Assembly: GCA_016933965.1 (NCBI GenBank)
Contig: JAFGTS010000013.1
Span: forward strand, 88,063 to 136,783
Reading direction: 5' to 3'
Length of the DNA: 48,721 nucleotides
Source of the DNA: Deltaproteobacteria bacterium
GTDB lineage: Bacteria > Desulfobacterota > Syntrophia > Syntrophales > UBA2210
The translations under genes were made by a program, and so were the position numbers. The notes beneath the pieces were generated by a model. The model did not search any database and had not been told where the DNA came from. It worked only from the letters and a program-made list of their open reading frames with translations. Below are positions 15,286 through 45,565 of the stretch, piece after piece; the stretch's first letter is position 1, and every line of letters starts with the position of its first letter.

Positions 15286-17481
15286 ATGAAGAAAACATCC
15301 TGTCGGTTCCTGTCTTTCATTGTGGCGGTATCTATTACGGTCCTCTGGCTGGGAACGGAGTCTGCCGTTGCGAAGGAGGAATATGCCGCCCGGACGGGAA
15401 AGGGGTGCGCGTACTGCCATCAGGATGCCCTCGGCGGTCCTCTCACCTCTGTCGGGTTCGCCTATATACGGAACGGATACGAGTACCCGATATCGGAAAA
15501 GGTACTGGAAAGGTCCGAACACTTTCGATCTCCCGGTCACCGGTTTGCCCGGTTCGTCATCGGTTATATCCACCTTCTGGCGGCGATCATATTCTTCGGC
15601 GCCATCTTCTACATTCATATCTTTATCAGACCCACCCGGCTGACGGGCGGCATACCAAAATATGAGAGGATCCTCGGTGTTTCCTGCATGGTTACTCTCA
15701 CGCTCACCGGCATCTACCTGACCTGGTTCCGGATCGACCGATGGGAACAGTTCTTCAATAACACATTCGGGTTCATGCTGTTCATAAAGATCCTTCTCTT
15801 CCTTATTATGGTGCTGATAGCCGCCACGGCGATAACGGTGGTGCACCGGGGAATGAAACGCGAGGTCTTTGCTGCCCCGGCTCCCCGGGCATCGGGAGCG
15901 GTGACGCCGTCTGACTTGCGACTTTACGACGGTACTCAGGGAAGGGCCGCCTATGTGGTCCATGAAGACGCCATTTATGATGTGTCGGGCAGTGAAAAGT
16001 GGAAGGGAGGCCGTCATTTCGGCAAACACGCCGCGGGGAACGACCTGACGGAGGCCCTGAAAGGAGCGCCTCACGGGACGGAAGTATTCCAGAATGTGAA
16101 ATACGTGGGGACACTGGCGGCGGAGAAGGGCAGGCCCGCTGCGGTATCGCGAACGGCCCACAAGGTCTTCGTGGTCATGGCCTATACGAACCTGGTTATC
16201 ATTTTTCTCATCGCCGCCTGCATCAGCGTCTGGCGGTGGGGGGTTCCGGTGCATATCATGCCGGCGCCCGGTGCCGCCGTGACAACCGAAAAGACCTGTC
16301 TGTCCTGTCACAAGTCCAACAAACCCGCCTTGTATGCCGACTGGGAGAAGAGCGTTCACGCCGCCGTCGGCGTCACCTGTTACGATTGTCACCGGGGAGG
16401 AAACGACAGGAATCTTATCAGCGTGGAGCATCTGAAGAACAGCACGTCCCCCATATCGATCGTCGTTTCACCGAAACGCTGTGCCGGCTGTCACCCGGCG
16501 GAAGCAACGCAGTTCGAAAAAAGCAAGCATGCCCATACGCGGGATATCATGTGGACCGTCGATTCCTGGTTGAATGACGACATGAACAATGCCGTTGAGC
16601 GGACGACCGGATGTTACACCTGTCATGGCACCTTTGTGGAAGTCATAGATGGCAGGCCCCTTCCTGGCACCTGGCCCAATGTGGGCATCGGCAGAATCAA
16701 TCCCGACGGCAGCAGGGGATGTTGTTCAAGCTGTCACACGCGACACAGGTTTTCCATTGCCGAGGCGAGAAAACCGGAGGCCTGCGATCAGTGCCACCTT
16801 GGTCCCGATCATCCGCAGATAGAGATCTACAATGAATCCAAGCATGGGACCATCTATCATGCCGAGGGTCATCTGTGGGAATGGACGCCGGTGGACAACA
16901 CGTGGACGGCGGGCAGGGATTACCGTGCCCCCACCTGCTCATCGTGCCACATGTCGGCCGCCGCCGGCGTGGAGCGGTCCCACAATGTGACGGAACGTTT
17001 GTCCTGGGAGACACAGGCGCCCCTGACCGTCCGCCCTGCCGAGTTCAGGCCGTTCCCGGCGCGGACGGACTGGTGGCAGGAGCGGAAAAAGATGACAGGG
17101 GTTTGCCTCCAGTGCCATTCCGTTACCTGGGCCGATGATCACTTCAGAAATCTGGATGGGGTCGTAGAAAACTACAATGAAGAATATTACAGACCCGTCC
17201 GGTTACTTATGAACGAACTGTATGAAGCCGGGCTTCTGTCAGATGAGCTCTATTTCGATGAGGAACTTGAATGGGAGTTCTATGAGTTCTGGCATCACGA
17301 GGGGCGCCGGGCCCGCATGGGGGCCGCCATGATGGCGCCCGATTACGCCTGGTGGCACGGGTTCTACGAGTTGAAAAAGCGCTTCGCCGGGATCATGGAA
17401 TCAGCCGGGAAACTGAAACGGGGTGAGGATTCACCCCGTTATGAACGAATTCCCGGCAGGTACAGCGCCGATAGTAAATAG
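15286..17481 (+). CDS. Membrane-anchored cytochrome b5-like/HAO-like octahaem fusion cytochrome
   Basis: A 731-residue multidomain electron-transfer protein. A signal or anchor segment (1-29) precedes a single CxxCH haem motif (41-45). Three hydrophobic helices (about 87-110, 130-150, 162-186) resemble CopD/b-type membrane modules. A cytochrome b5-like domain (about 211-278) has YDVSGSEKW, GRHFGKHAAGND and APHG with candidate haem histidines. A fourth helix (293-318) is followed by eight CxxCH motifs (338, 365, 399, 443, 480, 500, 551, 607). The C-terminal part matches the hydroxylamine-oxidoreductase family: NESKHGTIYHAEGH, ERLSWETQ, VCLQCHS and HHEGRRARMGAAMMAPDY. The start 15286 gives the better signal peptide; ATG 15262 adds 8 residues. 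Likely activity: quinol-linked reduction of a nitrogen (or sulfur) compound at the periplasmic face, inferred. Confidence 0.8.
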   Translation: MKKTSCRFLSFIVAVSITVLWLGTESAVAKEEYAARTGKGCAYCHQDALGGPLTSVGFAYIRNGYEYPISEKVLERSEHFRSPGHRFARFVIGYIHLLAAIIFFGAIFYIHIFIRPTRLTGGIPKYERILGVSCMVTLTLTGIYLTWFRIDRWEQFFNNTFGFMLFIKILLFLIMVLIAATAITVVHRGMKREVFAAPAPRASGAVTPSDLRLYDGTQGRAAYVVHEDAIYDVSGSEKWKGGRHFGKHAAGNDLTEALKGAPHGTEVFQNVKYVGTLAAEKGRPAAVSRTAHKVFVVMAYTNLVIIFLIAACISVWRWGVPVHIMPAPGAAVTTEKTCLSCHKSNKPALYADWEKSVHAAVGVTCYDCHRGGNDRNLISVEHLKNSTSPISIVVSPKRCAGCHPAEATQFEKSKHAHTRDIMWTVDSWLNDDMNNAVERTTGCYTCHGTFVEVIDGRPLPGTWPNVGIGRINPDGSRGCCSSCHTRHRFSIAEARKPEACDQCHLGPDHPQIEIYNESKHGTIYHAEGHLWEWTPVDNTWTAGRDYRAPTCSSCHMSAAAGVERSHNVTERLSWETQAPLTVRPAEFRPFPARTDWWQERKKMTGVCLQCHSVTWADDHFRNLDGVVENYNEEYYRPVRLLMNELYEAGLLSDELYFDEELEWEFYEFWHHEGRRARMGAAMMAPDYAWWHGFYELKKRFAGIMESAGKLKRGEDSPRYERIPGRYSADSK

Positions 17482-43215: not shown

Positions 43216-44547
43216 ATGGATGTCCTGATACTCTCGCGGATTCAGTTCGCCGCCGCCACCTATTTTCATTTTCTTTTTGTCCCCCTGACTCTGGGGTTGT
43301 CCATCATTATCGCCATCATGGAGACCATCTACGTCAGGAGCGGCGATACCGATTACCTGCGGATGACGAAATTCTGGGGAAAGATCTTTGTCATTAACTT
43401 CGTGGTGGGAGTGGTGACGGGCATCACCCTGGAATTCCAGTTCGGTACGAACTGGTCCCGTTACTCACAGTACGTGGGTGATGTATTCGGGCCCCTGCTG
43501 GCGATCGAAGCGACAGCGGCATTTTTCCTGGAATCGGTGTTTCTCGCCGTCTGGATATTCGGCTGGAAAAGACTTTCACCGAAGGCCCACGTGGCGGCCA
43601 TCTGGCTCGTGGCCTTTGCCTCGACCCTGTCGGCCCTCTGGATACTCGTGGCCAATTCCTGGATGCAACACCCCGTGGGATATGTCCTGCGGAACGGCAG
43701 GGCCGAGTTGGCAAACCTGCTCGATATCGTGACCCAGAGCTATTCCGTGCTTACCTTTCTCCATGCCACTTCGGCATCTTACGTGGTGGCGGGGTTTTTC
43801 GTCATGGGCGTCAGCGCCTTCCACCTGCTTCGGAACAGTCACCGCCTTCTCTTCGAAAAGTCGTTCAGGATCGGGCTTTATTTTTCCCTGATCTTCTCGA
43901 TCTTCGTTGTCGCCGAAGGTCACATGCACGGTGCCGACCTGGCTGAAAAACAACCGGCGAAGCTGGCGGCCCTCGAATCCCTCTGGGAAACCCAGGCCTA
44001 CGCGCCGCTCTACCTGCTGGCTGTTCCCGGCATGGACAATGAAGGCAATGTCCTCGAATTCGGACGCGTTCCGGGGGTCATGAGCCTCCTCGCCCACCAC
44101 CGGCCCGACGCCGTGGTGACGGGGCTCAACGATATACCGAAAGAGCTGCGGCCTCCCGTGGCCCCCGTTTTTTATTCGTTCAGGTTCATGGTCGTCCTGG
44201 GAGGGCTCTTTGTCCTGCTCACGCTGTATGGCTGGCTCCGGCGCAACAGGCTTTCCGAGAGCAGGACATTTCTCAGGATCCTGGTCTATGCCGTTCCGCT
44301 TCCCTATATCGTCTGCCTTGCGGGCTGGACCGTGACGGAAGTGGGAAGACAGCCCTGGATCGTGTACGGCCTGATGAAAACGGCCGACGCCGTTTCGCCC
44401 ATTGCGGCCGGGCACGTGGCGGTATCCCTGTGGGCATTCATCATCGTTTATTCCCTGGTCGGCGTCGGGGCCTTCGCCATGATGCTCCGGATCATTCGTA
44501 AAGGACCGGCGGAAGATGCGCGAAAGGAGGTGTCCAGCCATGCTTGA
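43216..44547 (+). CDS. cydA: Cytochrome bd-type quinol oxidase subunit I
   Basis: A 443-residue membrane subunit that oxidises quinol and carries three haems to reduce oxygen. Ligand and signature residues are visible: His18 in YFHFLFVPLTLGLS, the conserved GRxPW-type motif VGRQPWIVYG, and about nine helices. The periplasmic Q-loop between about 250 and 320 is short and lacks the long E. coli-type C-terminal insertion. In an anaerobe this oxidase protects against oxygen. AAAGGAGG lies before the ATG. cydB overlaps by 8 bp. Confidence 0.95.
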   Translation: MDVLILSRIQFAAATYFHFLFVPLTLGLSIIIAIMETIYVRSGDTDYLRMTKFWGKIFVINFVVGVVTGITLEFQFGTNWSRYSQYVGDVFGPLLAIEATAAFFLESVFLAVWIFGWKRLSPKAHVAAIWLVAFASTLSALWILVANSWMQHPVGYVLRNGRAELANLLDIVTQSYSVLTFLHATSASYVVAGFFVMGVSAFHLLRNSHRLLFEKSFRIGLYFSLIFSIFVVAEGHMHGADLAEKQPAKLAALESLWETQAYAPLYLLAVPGMDNEGNVLEFGRVPGVMSLLAHHRPDAVVTGLNDIPKELRPPVAPVFYSFRFMVVLGGLFVLLTLYGWLRRNRLSESRTFLRILVYAVPLPYIVCLAGWTVTEVGRQPWIVYGLMKTADAVSPIAAGHVAVSLWAFIIVYSLVGVGAFAMMLRIIRKGPAEDARKEVSSHA

Positions 44548-45565
44548 AACGCTGTGGTTCTTTCTGTGGGGGTTGCTCTGGGCCGTCTATTTCATGCTTG
44601 ACGGGTTCGACCTGGGACTGGGTATCCTGCTTCCCGTCACCTCGAAAAGAGATAAGGAAACGCGCGCGCTCTACCGTGCCATGGGGCCCTTCTGGGACGG
44701 AAACGAGGTCTGGCTGGTCGCCGCCGGGGGAGTGACCTTCGCCGCATTTCCCACGGCCTATGCCGTCATGTTCAGTTCCCTCTATGCCCCGCTCCTGTGC
44801 GTGCTCTTTGCGCTTATCATTCGCGCCGTCGCCGTCGAGTTCCGGGGGCAGCTTGAGGCGAGCGCCTGGCGTGCCTTCTGGGATGCCTGCCTCTGGGCGA
44901 GCAGTTTCGCGGCGGCCTTTCTCTTCGGTCTCATCTTCGCGAACCTCTTCCGGGGGATCCCCCTGAACGAGGACGGCCTGTTTCAGGGTTCACTGCTCGC
45001 GCTGTTCAACCTGTACGGTGTATCGGGCGGCGCTTTCTTCCTCATTGCCTTCATGTTCCACGGCTCGCTCTGGCTGGTGATAAAATCGGACGGAAAATTG
45101 AGGAGCCGGGCCATCGTGGCGGCCGTGTCTTCCTGGACGGCGGTGACCCTGGCGGCACTGCTCTTTCTCATTCTTTCAGGGTTCAGAACGGACCTCTACG
45201 TTAATTATGTGAATATGCCGGTCCTCTTCCTGATCCCCGGGGCCGCCATCGCAGCGCTCCTGGCCGCCCGGATATTCATCAGCCGCCGTTCGTGGTGGAA
45301 GGCCTGGTTTTCTTCCGCGATCTTCATCGTGGCGGCCACCTTTTTCGGCATCGCCGGTCTCTATCCCTACATCCTGCGGTCGACCCTTGACGAACGGTTC
45401 GGCATCACGTTATATGAAGCCGCGTCGAGCCCGCTGACCCTGAAGACGATGCTCGTGGTCGTCTGCATCTTTGTCCCCCTGGTCCTCGTGTATCAGGGGT
45501 GGGTGTACTGGTTGTTCAGGGACAGGATAGAAGACGGCGATACGGCGGCGGGGGAACCGTACTGA
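44540..45565 (+). CDS. cydB: Cytochrome bd-type quinol oxidase subunit II
   Basis: A 341-residue partner subunit. The N-terminus WFFLWGLLWAVYFMLDGFDL followed by GLGILLP is diagnostic of CydB, as is GNEVWLVAAGGVTFAAFP near residue 60. About eight hydrophobic helices run to the C-terminus. The ATG 44540 is chosen because AAAGGAGG lies 9 bases upstream and the family N-terminus starts there. No cydX-like small ORF was seen after it. Confidence 0.95.
   Translation: MLETLWFFLWGLLWAVYFMLDGFDLGLGILLPVTSKRDKETRALYRAMGPFWDGNEVWLVAAGGVTFAAFPTAYAVMFSSLYAPLLCVLFALIIRAVAVEFRGQLEASAWRAFWDACLWASSFAAAFLFGLIFANLFRGIPLNEDGLFQGSLLALFNLYGVSGGAFFLIAFMFHGSLWLVIKSDGKLRSRAIVAAVSSWTAVTLAALLFLILSGFRTDLYVNYVNMPVLFLIPGAAIAALLAARIFISRRSWWKAWFSSAIFIVAATFFGIAGLYPYILRSTLDERFGITLYEAASSPLTLKTMLVVVCIFVPLVLVYQGWVYWLFRDRIEDGDTAAGEPY

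Follow-up and report, generated by a model that had tools for sequence, protein, structure and literature searches.

A membrane-anchored, cross-link-free octahaem cytochrome of the HAO family fused to a CopD/b5 module: a candidate periplasmic nitrogen-oxide reductase

Results

Gene structure and order of parts

Within the window, by which we mean the whole stretch of 48,721 nucleotides analysed here, an isolated gene flanked by unrelated genes encodes a single-chain CopD/b5-octahaem cytochrome of 731 aa (15286..17481, forward strand, as are all features of the gene given below). The frame opens with an ATG at 15286, closes with a stop ending at 17481 and contains no internal stops; the homologues agree with this start, although translation might instead begin at another ATG of the same frame, located 24 bases upstream. 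Nine CxxCH motifs (residues 41, 338, 365, 399, 443, 480, 500, 551, and 607) stand against 0.03 expected from composition alone, and the parts follow one another in the order haem c, three membrane helices, b5 domain, one membrane helix and octahaem domain. Pfam recognises CopD (130-196), Cyt-b5 (208-277), and Multi-haem_cyto PF13447 (479-652; 6.7e-32), all beyond the curated cut-offs; a NapC/NirT N-terminal match at aa 302-370 barely exceeds its own. An AlphaFold2 model of the monomer, built on a 51-sequence alignment of homologous loci, has a mean pLDDT of 85 and a pTM of 0.59.

The chain begins with a predicted signal peptide (aa 1-28; 15286..15369), for which a hydrophobic stretch at 4-29, a modelled helix at 2-22 and an AxA-like putative cleavage site identified by eye between ESAVA and KEEY provide the basis. 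The N-terminal haem c motif, CAYCH (C41-H45; 15406..15420), lies in a small region that precedes the first membrane helix in the model, and is present in all fused proteins and in all 41 stand-alone modules described below. Membrane helices 1 (aa 83-114; 15532..15627), 3 (aa 160-196; 15763..15873), and 4 (aa 290-318; 16153..16239) are supported by the model and by hydropathy; helix 2 (aa 125-149; 15658..15732) is present in the model and lies slightly below the hydropathy threshold. Helices 2 and 3 are CopD-like, falling in the Pfam CopD match. The b5 domain (aa 203-278; 15892..16119) sits between helices 3 and 4, and the octahaem domain (aa 333-731; 16282..17478) completes the protein. Pfam, AlphaFold2, and the motif count thereby agree with the parts that an earlier note had read from this DNA, namely a haem c motif, four membrane helices, a b5-like domain and eight CxxCH motifs in an HAO-like context.

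Distribution and authenticity of the fusion

Fourteen further full-length homologues of the same architecture, roughly 42-63% identical, retain the key residues, and the resulting 15 proteins derive from at least four phyla (Desulfobacterota, Krumholzibacteriota, Fermentibacterota, and Spirochaetota), which bears out the single-chain architecture claimed in the earlier note. Across the 15-protein alignment all checked residues are identical, with one His691 as the sole exception. In a scan of 84,980 genomes, homologues with 54-71% identity, full-length in some cases and partial in others, came from Deltaproteobacteria MAGs, Desulfosarcina widdelii (whose chromosome is complete), Krumholzibacteriia, Spirochaetales, and Fermentibacteria, while a phylum-wide sample of 394 genomes yielded more fused genes, with frames of 728-796 codons and the same part order, one of them in a single-contig genome. 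The fused gene also occurs in a second Spirochaetota genome.

The assembly that holds the window is in 55 contigs, which might favour a frame error or chimeric assembly joining two genes, the outcome that the earlier note had named as fatal to its proposal. However, the frame is continuous and the same fusion recurs in 14 other proteins, including those of the D. widdelii chromosome and the single-contig genome; as independent assemblies carry the identical fusion, we reject this explanation and see virtually no chance of an artefact. Our literature search, outside which most subscription journals lay, found no published account of a fused CopD/b5-octahaem architecture, nor anything on CopD together with cytochrome b5, or on D. 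widdelii with hydroxylamine or nitrite.

Fold and active site of the octahaem domain

The motif scan places haems 1 to 3 of the octahaem domain at CLSCH (16297..16311), CYDCH (16378..16392), and CAGCH (16480..16494), and haems 5 to 8 at CSSCH (16723..16737), CDQCH (16783..16797), CSSCH (16936..16950), and CLQCH (17104..17118). Counting residues in the 1fgj alignment and in the profile alignment matches haem 4, CYTCH (443-447; 16612..16626), to C229-H233 of HAO (hydroxylamine oxidoreductase), the motif of its catalytic P460 haem. The nearest solved structure by sequence is the octahaem cytochrome of Ignicoccus hospitalis (IhOCC, 4qo5; family-profile search, E 1.7e-59), followed by HAO-type proteins (6h5l and 1fgj among them), and the modelled fold ranks likewise, with Z 27.7 to 4qo5 over 368 residues and 21-23 to HAO, HOX, HAOr, and HDH. 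Comparison with NrfA and ONR gives Z of about 10, and Foldseek matches to MccA are weak. Together with eight CxxCH haems in HAO order, these results place the domain in the HAO family, as the earlier note had supposed.

At the active haem, D508-H509 (16807..16812) aligns with D267-H268 of HAO, on the distal side, and is invariant in the fused homologues. The position of the tyrosine that is cross-linked to the catalytic haem in oxidative HAO and HDH (Tyr467; counting in the alignment confirmed that position 467 of 1fgj is Tyr) is occupied in the 1fgj profile alignment by W689 (17350..17352), and by Trp in 15/15 fused proteins, an alignment-based answer to the check on this residue proposed in the earlier note. 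The fused homologues are very strongly conserved in the C-terminal helices and near haem 4. On sequence and predicted fold, then, the octahaem domain is a member of the HAO fold family that lacks the defining feature of oxidative HAO/HDH. Membership of the latter is rejected, given the missing Tyr and a score of 82 bits against the NCBIfam HDH model, whose cut-off is 900; NrfA/ONR membership is likewise rejected, because all nine motifs are CxxCH with no CxxCK, and the fold score is low. Absence of the cross-linking Tyr marks the reductive members of the family (PMC12758564; PMC8940962; PMC3701875), and as the Asp-His pair is retained, a reductase appears likelier than an oxidase. A stand-alone octahaem protein of the same order (L014:913-2169) differs from its relatives in having Tyr where HAO has Tyr467, and is possibly oxidative.

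Comparison with characterised proteins sharpens this picture. IhOCC, which is membrane-associated, is the best match in both sequence and fold and also lacks Tyr at the cross-link column, but it is a separate chain without the CopD/b5 module, and has Asp-Val where the fused protein has Asp-His. HAO and hydrazine dehydrogenase (1fgj, 4n4j, 6hif), which are homotrimers, share the order of the eight CxxCH motifs, the haem 4 position and the distal Asp-His at Z 21-23, yet are soluble and possess Tyr467, whereas the fused protein is membrane-bound, lacks that Tyr and adds a haem c and a b5 domain. The reductive HAO-like HAOr of Kuenenia (Kustc0457/0458, 6h5l) also aligns Trp, not Tyr, at the cross-link column, but forms a complex without a CopD/b5 membrane module.

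The retained HAO-type Asp-His pair might instead serve the periplasmic oxidation of hydroxylamine, hydrazine or NO, with electrons delivered to quinone or, via b5, to a cytosolic acceptor, in the manner of the forward HURM known from ammonia oxidisers (PMC3701875). The loss of the cross-linking Tyr from every fused protein, and the lack of a COX1-family oxidase in the window's own genome, make this direction quite improbable in our estimation.

Membrane module and predicted topology

The PF05425 (CopD family) profile matches 33/33 of the modules scanned, and no copper-gene context was recognised near these CopD-like modules. Six residues are invariant in the aligned set of 33: H96 (15571-15573) and H111 (15616-15618) in helix 1, K168 (15787-15789) in helix 3, and H244 (16015), H248 (16027), and H263 (16072) in the b5 domain. 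The modelled b5 domain matches 6nzx with Z 14.4 and an rmsd of 1.0 over 76 residues at 42% identity; this fold and the conserved His positions identify it as a cytochrome b5 domain, with the assignment of haem ligands putative. The archaeal single-domain b5 proteins on which it superposes (Hadesarchaea 6nzx, Methanococcoides 6vz6; 1.0 Å over 76 residues) stand alone, whereas the b5 domain of the fused protein is inserted between helices 3 and 4.

The four-helix bundle is less readily classified. Against cytochrome-b-type and designed haem bundles it reaches Z of about 10-12, which is within the chance range for helical bundles, and the Foldseek ranking offers channels, HyaC, and a designed dihaem bundle, all too weak to justify a family name. 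Quinol-reactive b-type subunits usually hold bis-His haem b pairs drawn from two helices; because the invariant His residues of the membrane helices are confined to helix 1, such a pair is not evident here. A HemJ-like site, comprising one helix 1 His and the helix 3 Lys, is a possible lead for haem binding in the CopD bundle; our search brought up neither a paper nor a structure that could be used to support it.

Attachment of haem c takes place only in the periplasm, and CxxCH motifs flank the helix set, before helix 1 and after helix 4. As both ends of the four helices should therefore be periplasmic, the b5 domain between helices 3 and 4 is predicted to be cytoplasmic, with the N-terminal haem c and the octahaem domain in the periplasm. 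Loop charges are consistent with this arrangement: those between helices 1 and 2, helix 3 and b5, and b5 and helix 4 are of cytoplasmic type, at +4/-1 each, and the outer loops are neutral. If the b5 domain is cytoplasmic, then the chain runs across the whole membrane, linking a b-type haem in the cytosol with an array of c-type haems in the periplasm. The earlier note had envisaged a self-contained line from quinol to periplasm; with b5 in its predicted position the line would instead span the entire membrane, and quinol at the bundle and a cytosolic carrier at b5 are both candidate electron donors.

The module as a separate gene

A search with the N-terminal 331 positions recovered the module as a separate gene at 41 distinct loci, each with exactly one CxxCH. 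A separate octahaem gene of the PF13447 type is the immediate same-strand neighbour in 7/41 (L063, L094, L100, L101, L102, L103, and L104), although the octahaem-type frame at L094 has only four CxxCH. If each locus is allowed a 1% chance of such adjacency, a deliberately generous figure, seven in 41 has P = 2e-7, with the loci partly related and four of them from one family. At L058 a distant octahaem gene is the convergent neighbour of the module, and at L079 an octahaem gene with the same orientation as the module is found 4 kb upstream of it. The tree nests the L058 module itself (1675-2655) within the fused modules, which suggests that its octahaem part was lost.

In the octahaem tree, which includes long branches, the partners of split modules are separated from the fused octahaem domain by a strongly supported branch (100/98). 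Derivation of the fused gene from the split operon of its relatives is consequently not supported; rather, the module has been paired with two octahaem lineages, an association that constitutes Rosetta-stone evidence that it feeds octahaem cytochromes. The module tree, which needs three label changes for 'fused', could reflect either a single fusion followed by losses (L029, L036, and L098), or repeated fusion. At two loci with divergent fused genes (L071:6418-10734 and L072:6755-11030) a tetrahaem gene, a stand-alone octahaem gene and the fused gene stand in a row; the tetrahaem gene of L072, where this was tested, is NrfH-like, and in the tree the stand-alone octahaem falls among fused ones. 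At L099 (3043-4686) an NrfA-like protein (PF02335) with seven CxxCH is encoded directly convergent to a stand-alone module.

That the stand-alone module is common without an octahaem neighbour could indicate that the octahaem part of the fused protein is non-enzymatic, serving as a general electron conduit that links the inner membrane to acceptors in the periplasm or outside the cell, multihaem cytochromes being frequently used for extracellular transfer, or acting as a redox or NO sensor. Histidine kinases with GAF domains are encoded near several modules, and in one family a large multi-GAF histidine kinase with a response-regulator domain is convergent to the module (L068, L079, L080, L101, L103, and L104). 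Against this stand the very high conservation of the haem 4 surroundings and the C-terminal helices, the retained Asp-His pair and the HAO fold, and we regard a conduit or sensor as an unlikely role.

Nitrogen-oxide context near relatives and in the own genome

Most loci of the fused gene share no conserved neighbour, and its relatives supply what context there is. Two loci with split genes (L103:5207-10556 and L104:6209-12598) encode NorC, a COX1-type NorB, a DUF364 protein, the octahaem cytochrome and the module in that order on one strand; NorC-NorB also lie near the module at L080 and L081, and at L079 a 755-aa protein of qNOR type, comprising NorB-type N-terminal and COX1 domains, is encoded between octahaem gene and module. 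These NOR assignments are based on PF22085, COX1 and motifs read by eye, as NCBIfam gives the subunits no name. NOR genes accompany the module in one family only (two genera), and there with the split version, whose octahaem is of the other HAO lineage. Nevertheless, a separate module beside an octahaem gene, twice in order with NorC-NorB, supports both a functional link and a nitrogen-oxide setting. Closer to the fused version, the hydroxylamine reductase Hcp (NCBIfam equivalog) is encoded about 2 kb from a fused gene at L059 (3089-8741), with an HD-domain protein and a 4Fe-4S protein between them, and at L057 (13569-14915) fragments of Hcp occur at a distance of about 4 kb from the fused gene. 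Prismane matches in the 14 other fused-gene genomes are mixed with CODH-sized frames and were not counted as Hcp.

The window's own genome, which is 97% complete, contains two cytochrome-c assembly genes; we found in it no PF03063 gene of the Hcp/CODH family, no NorB/COX1-family gene and no NrfA, the only weak match to the last being the fused gene itself. True NrfA is missing from 12/15 fused-gene genomes and present in 3/15, and the three that possess it indicate that the fused protein is not simply an NrfA replacement. Elsewhere in this genome are a 392-aa multihaem ORF with 11 CxxCH near a CcsA gene (L105:1552-2727) and a 355-aa multihaem ORF with 5 CxxCH (L075:2410-3474), and two consecutive ORFs in the window (43216-45565) resemble, by eye, subunits I and II of cytochrome bd oxidase. 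The earlier note had proposed nitrite, hydroxylamine or NO as possible substrates, a proposal to which NorC-NorB and qNOR beside the split version, and Hcp near two fused genes, now lend indirect support.

With the same protein and topology, the substrate might instead be an oxidised sulfur compound, such as tetrathionate or sulfite. The window genome and many relatives belong to sulfur-cycling groups, tetrathionate and sulfite reductases sit in the wider multihaem superfamily, and such a substrate has been proposed for related HAO-family proteins of Desulfobacterota (PMC9213671). Yet the fold falls clearly in the HAO branch (Z 22-28) where that of MccA is matched weakly, the HAO catalytic Asp-His pair is kept, and relatives have NorC-NorB, qNOR, or Hcp encoded close by, while among the neighbours tested we recognised no genes of sulfur metabolism. 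We regard a sulfur substrate as unlikely.

Discussion

Our favoured interpretation, which we consider about evenly balanced between right and wrong, is that the fused protein is a membrane-spanning, cross-link-free, reductive octahaem cytochrome of the HAO family that acts on a periplasmic nitrogen oxide. Electrons would enter through the membrane module, the b5 haem of which may lie on the cytoplasmic side, and would be carried across by the CopD-like four-helix bundle, where the conserved H96, H111 and K168 may accommodate a putative haem b. The N-terminal haem c would then form the periplasmic end of the module and hand electrons on to the octahaem domain and its haem chain, so that the flow from b5 would be directed outward. 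There, haem 4 would reduce nitrite, hydroxylamine or NO, with ammonium or hydroxylamine as the probable product.

Such a mode of working would resemble reverse-HURM, in which HaoA acts with a NapC/NrfH-type cytochrome, or NrfHA, with a different and fused membrane module. The epsilonproteobacterial HaoA and CycB of reverse-HURM likewise constitute a membrane-fed octahaem reductase free of the cross-link (PMC3701875), but their membrane partner is a separate tetrahaem protein of the NapC/NrfH type, where the present protein has a CopD/b5 module with a single haem c in the same chain. No other multihaem gene adjoins the fused gene within the window, although such a partner adjoins those of L071 and L072; Hcp, a further element of the reverse-HURM comparison, was not found in the own genome. 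The ammonifying NrfHA is also a membrane-fed periplasmic multihaem enzyme, but a pentahaem one with a CxxCK catalytic haem, a different membrane subunit and a fold similarity of only about Z 9-10. The present protein is set apart from both systems by its membrane module, which is fused into the enzyme chain.

A bolder version of this proposal, which we advance tentatively as possible though doubtful, is that the cytosolic b5 haem would accept electrons from a soluble donor linked to NAD(P)H, flavin or ferredoxin, and so bypass the quinone pool on the way to a periplasmic, nitrogen-oxide-reducing octahaem site. The CopD/b5 module would then represent a general trans-membrane electron injector for several octahaem lineages.

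HAO-family proteins are most frequent in Desulfobacterota, where neither their function nor their source of electrons is established (PMC9213671). The present work supplies a concrete electron-input module, fused or neighbouring, for part of the family and for two of its octahaem lineages, and renders the question testable in cultured organisms such as D. widdelii. If the nitrogen-oxide interpretation is true, then the fused protein would provide an NrfA-free route of nitrite or hydroxylamine reduction in organisms that are usually classed under sulfur metabolism.
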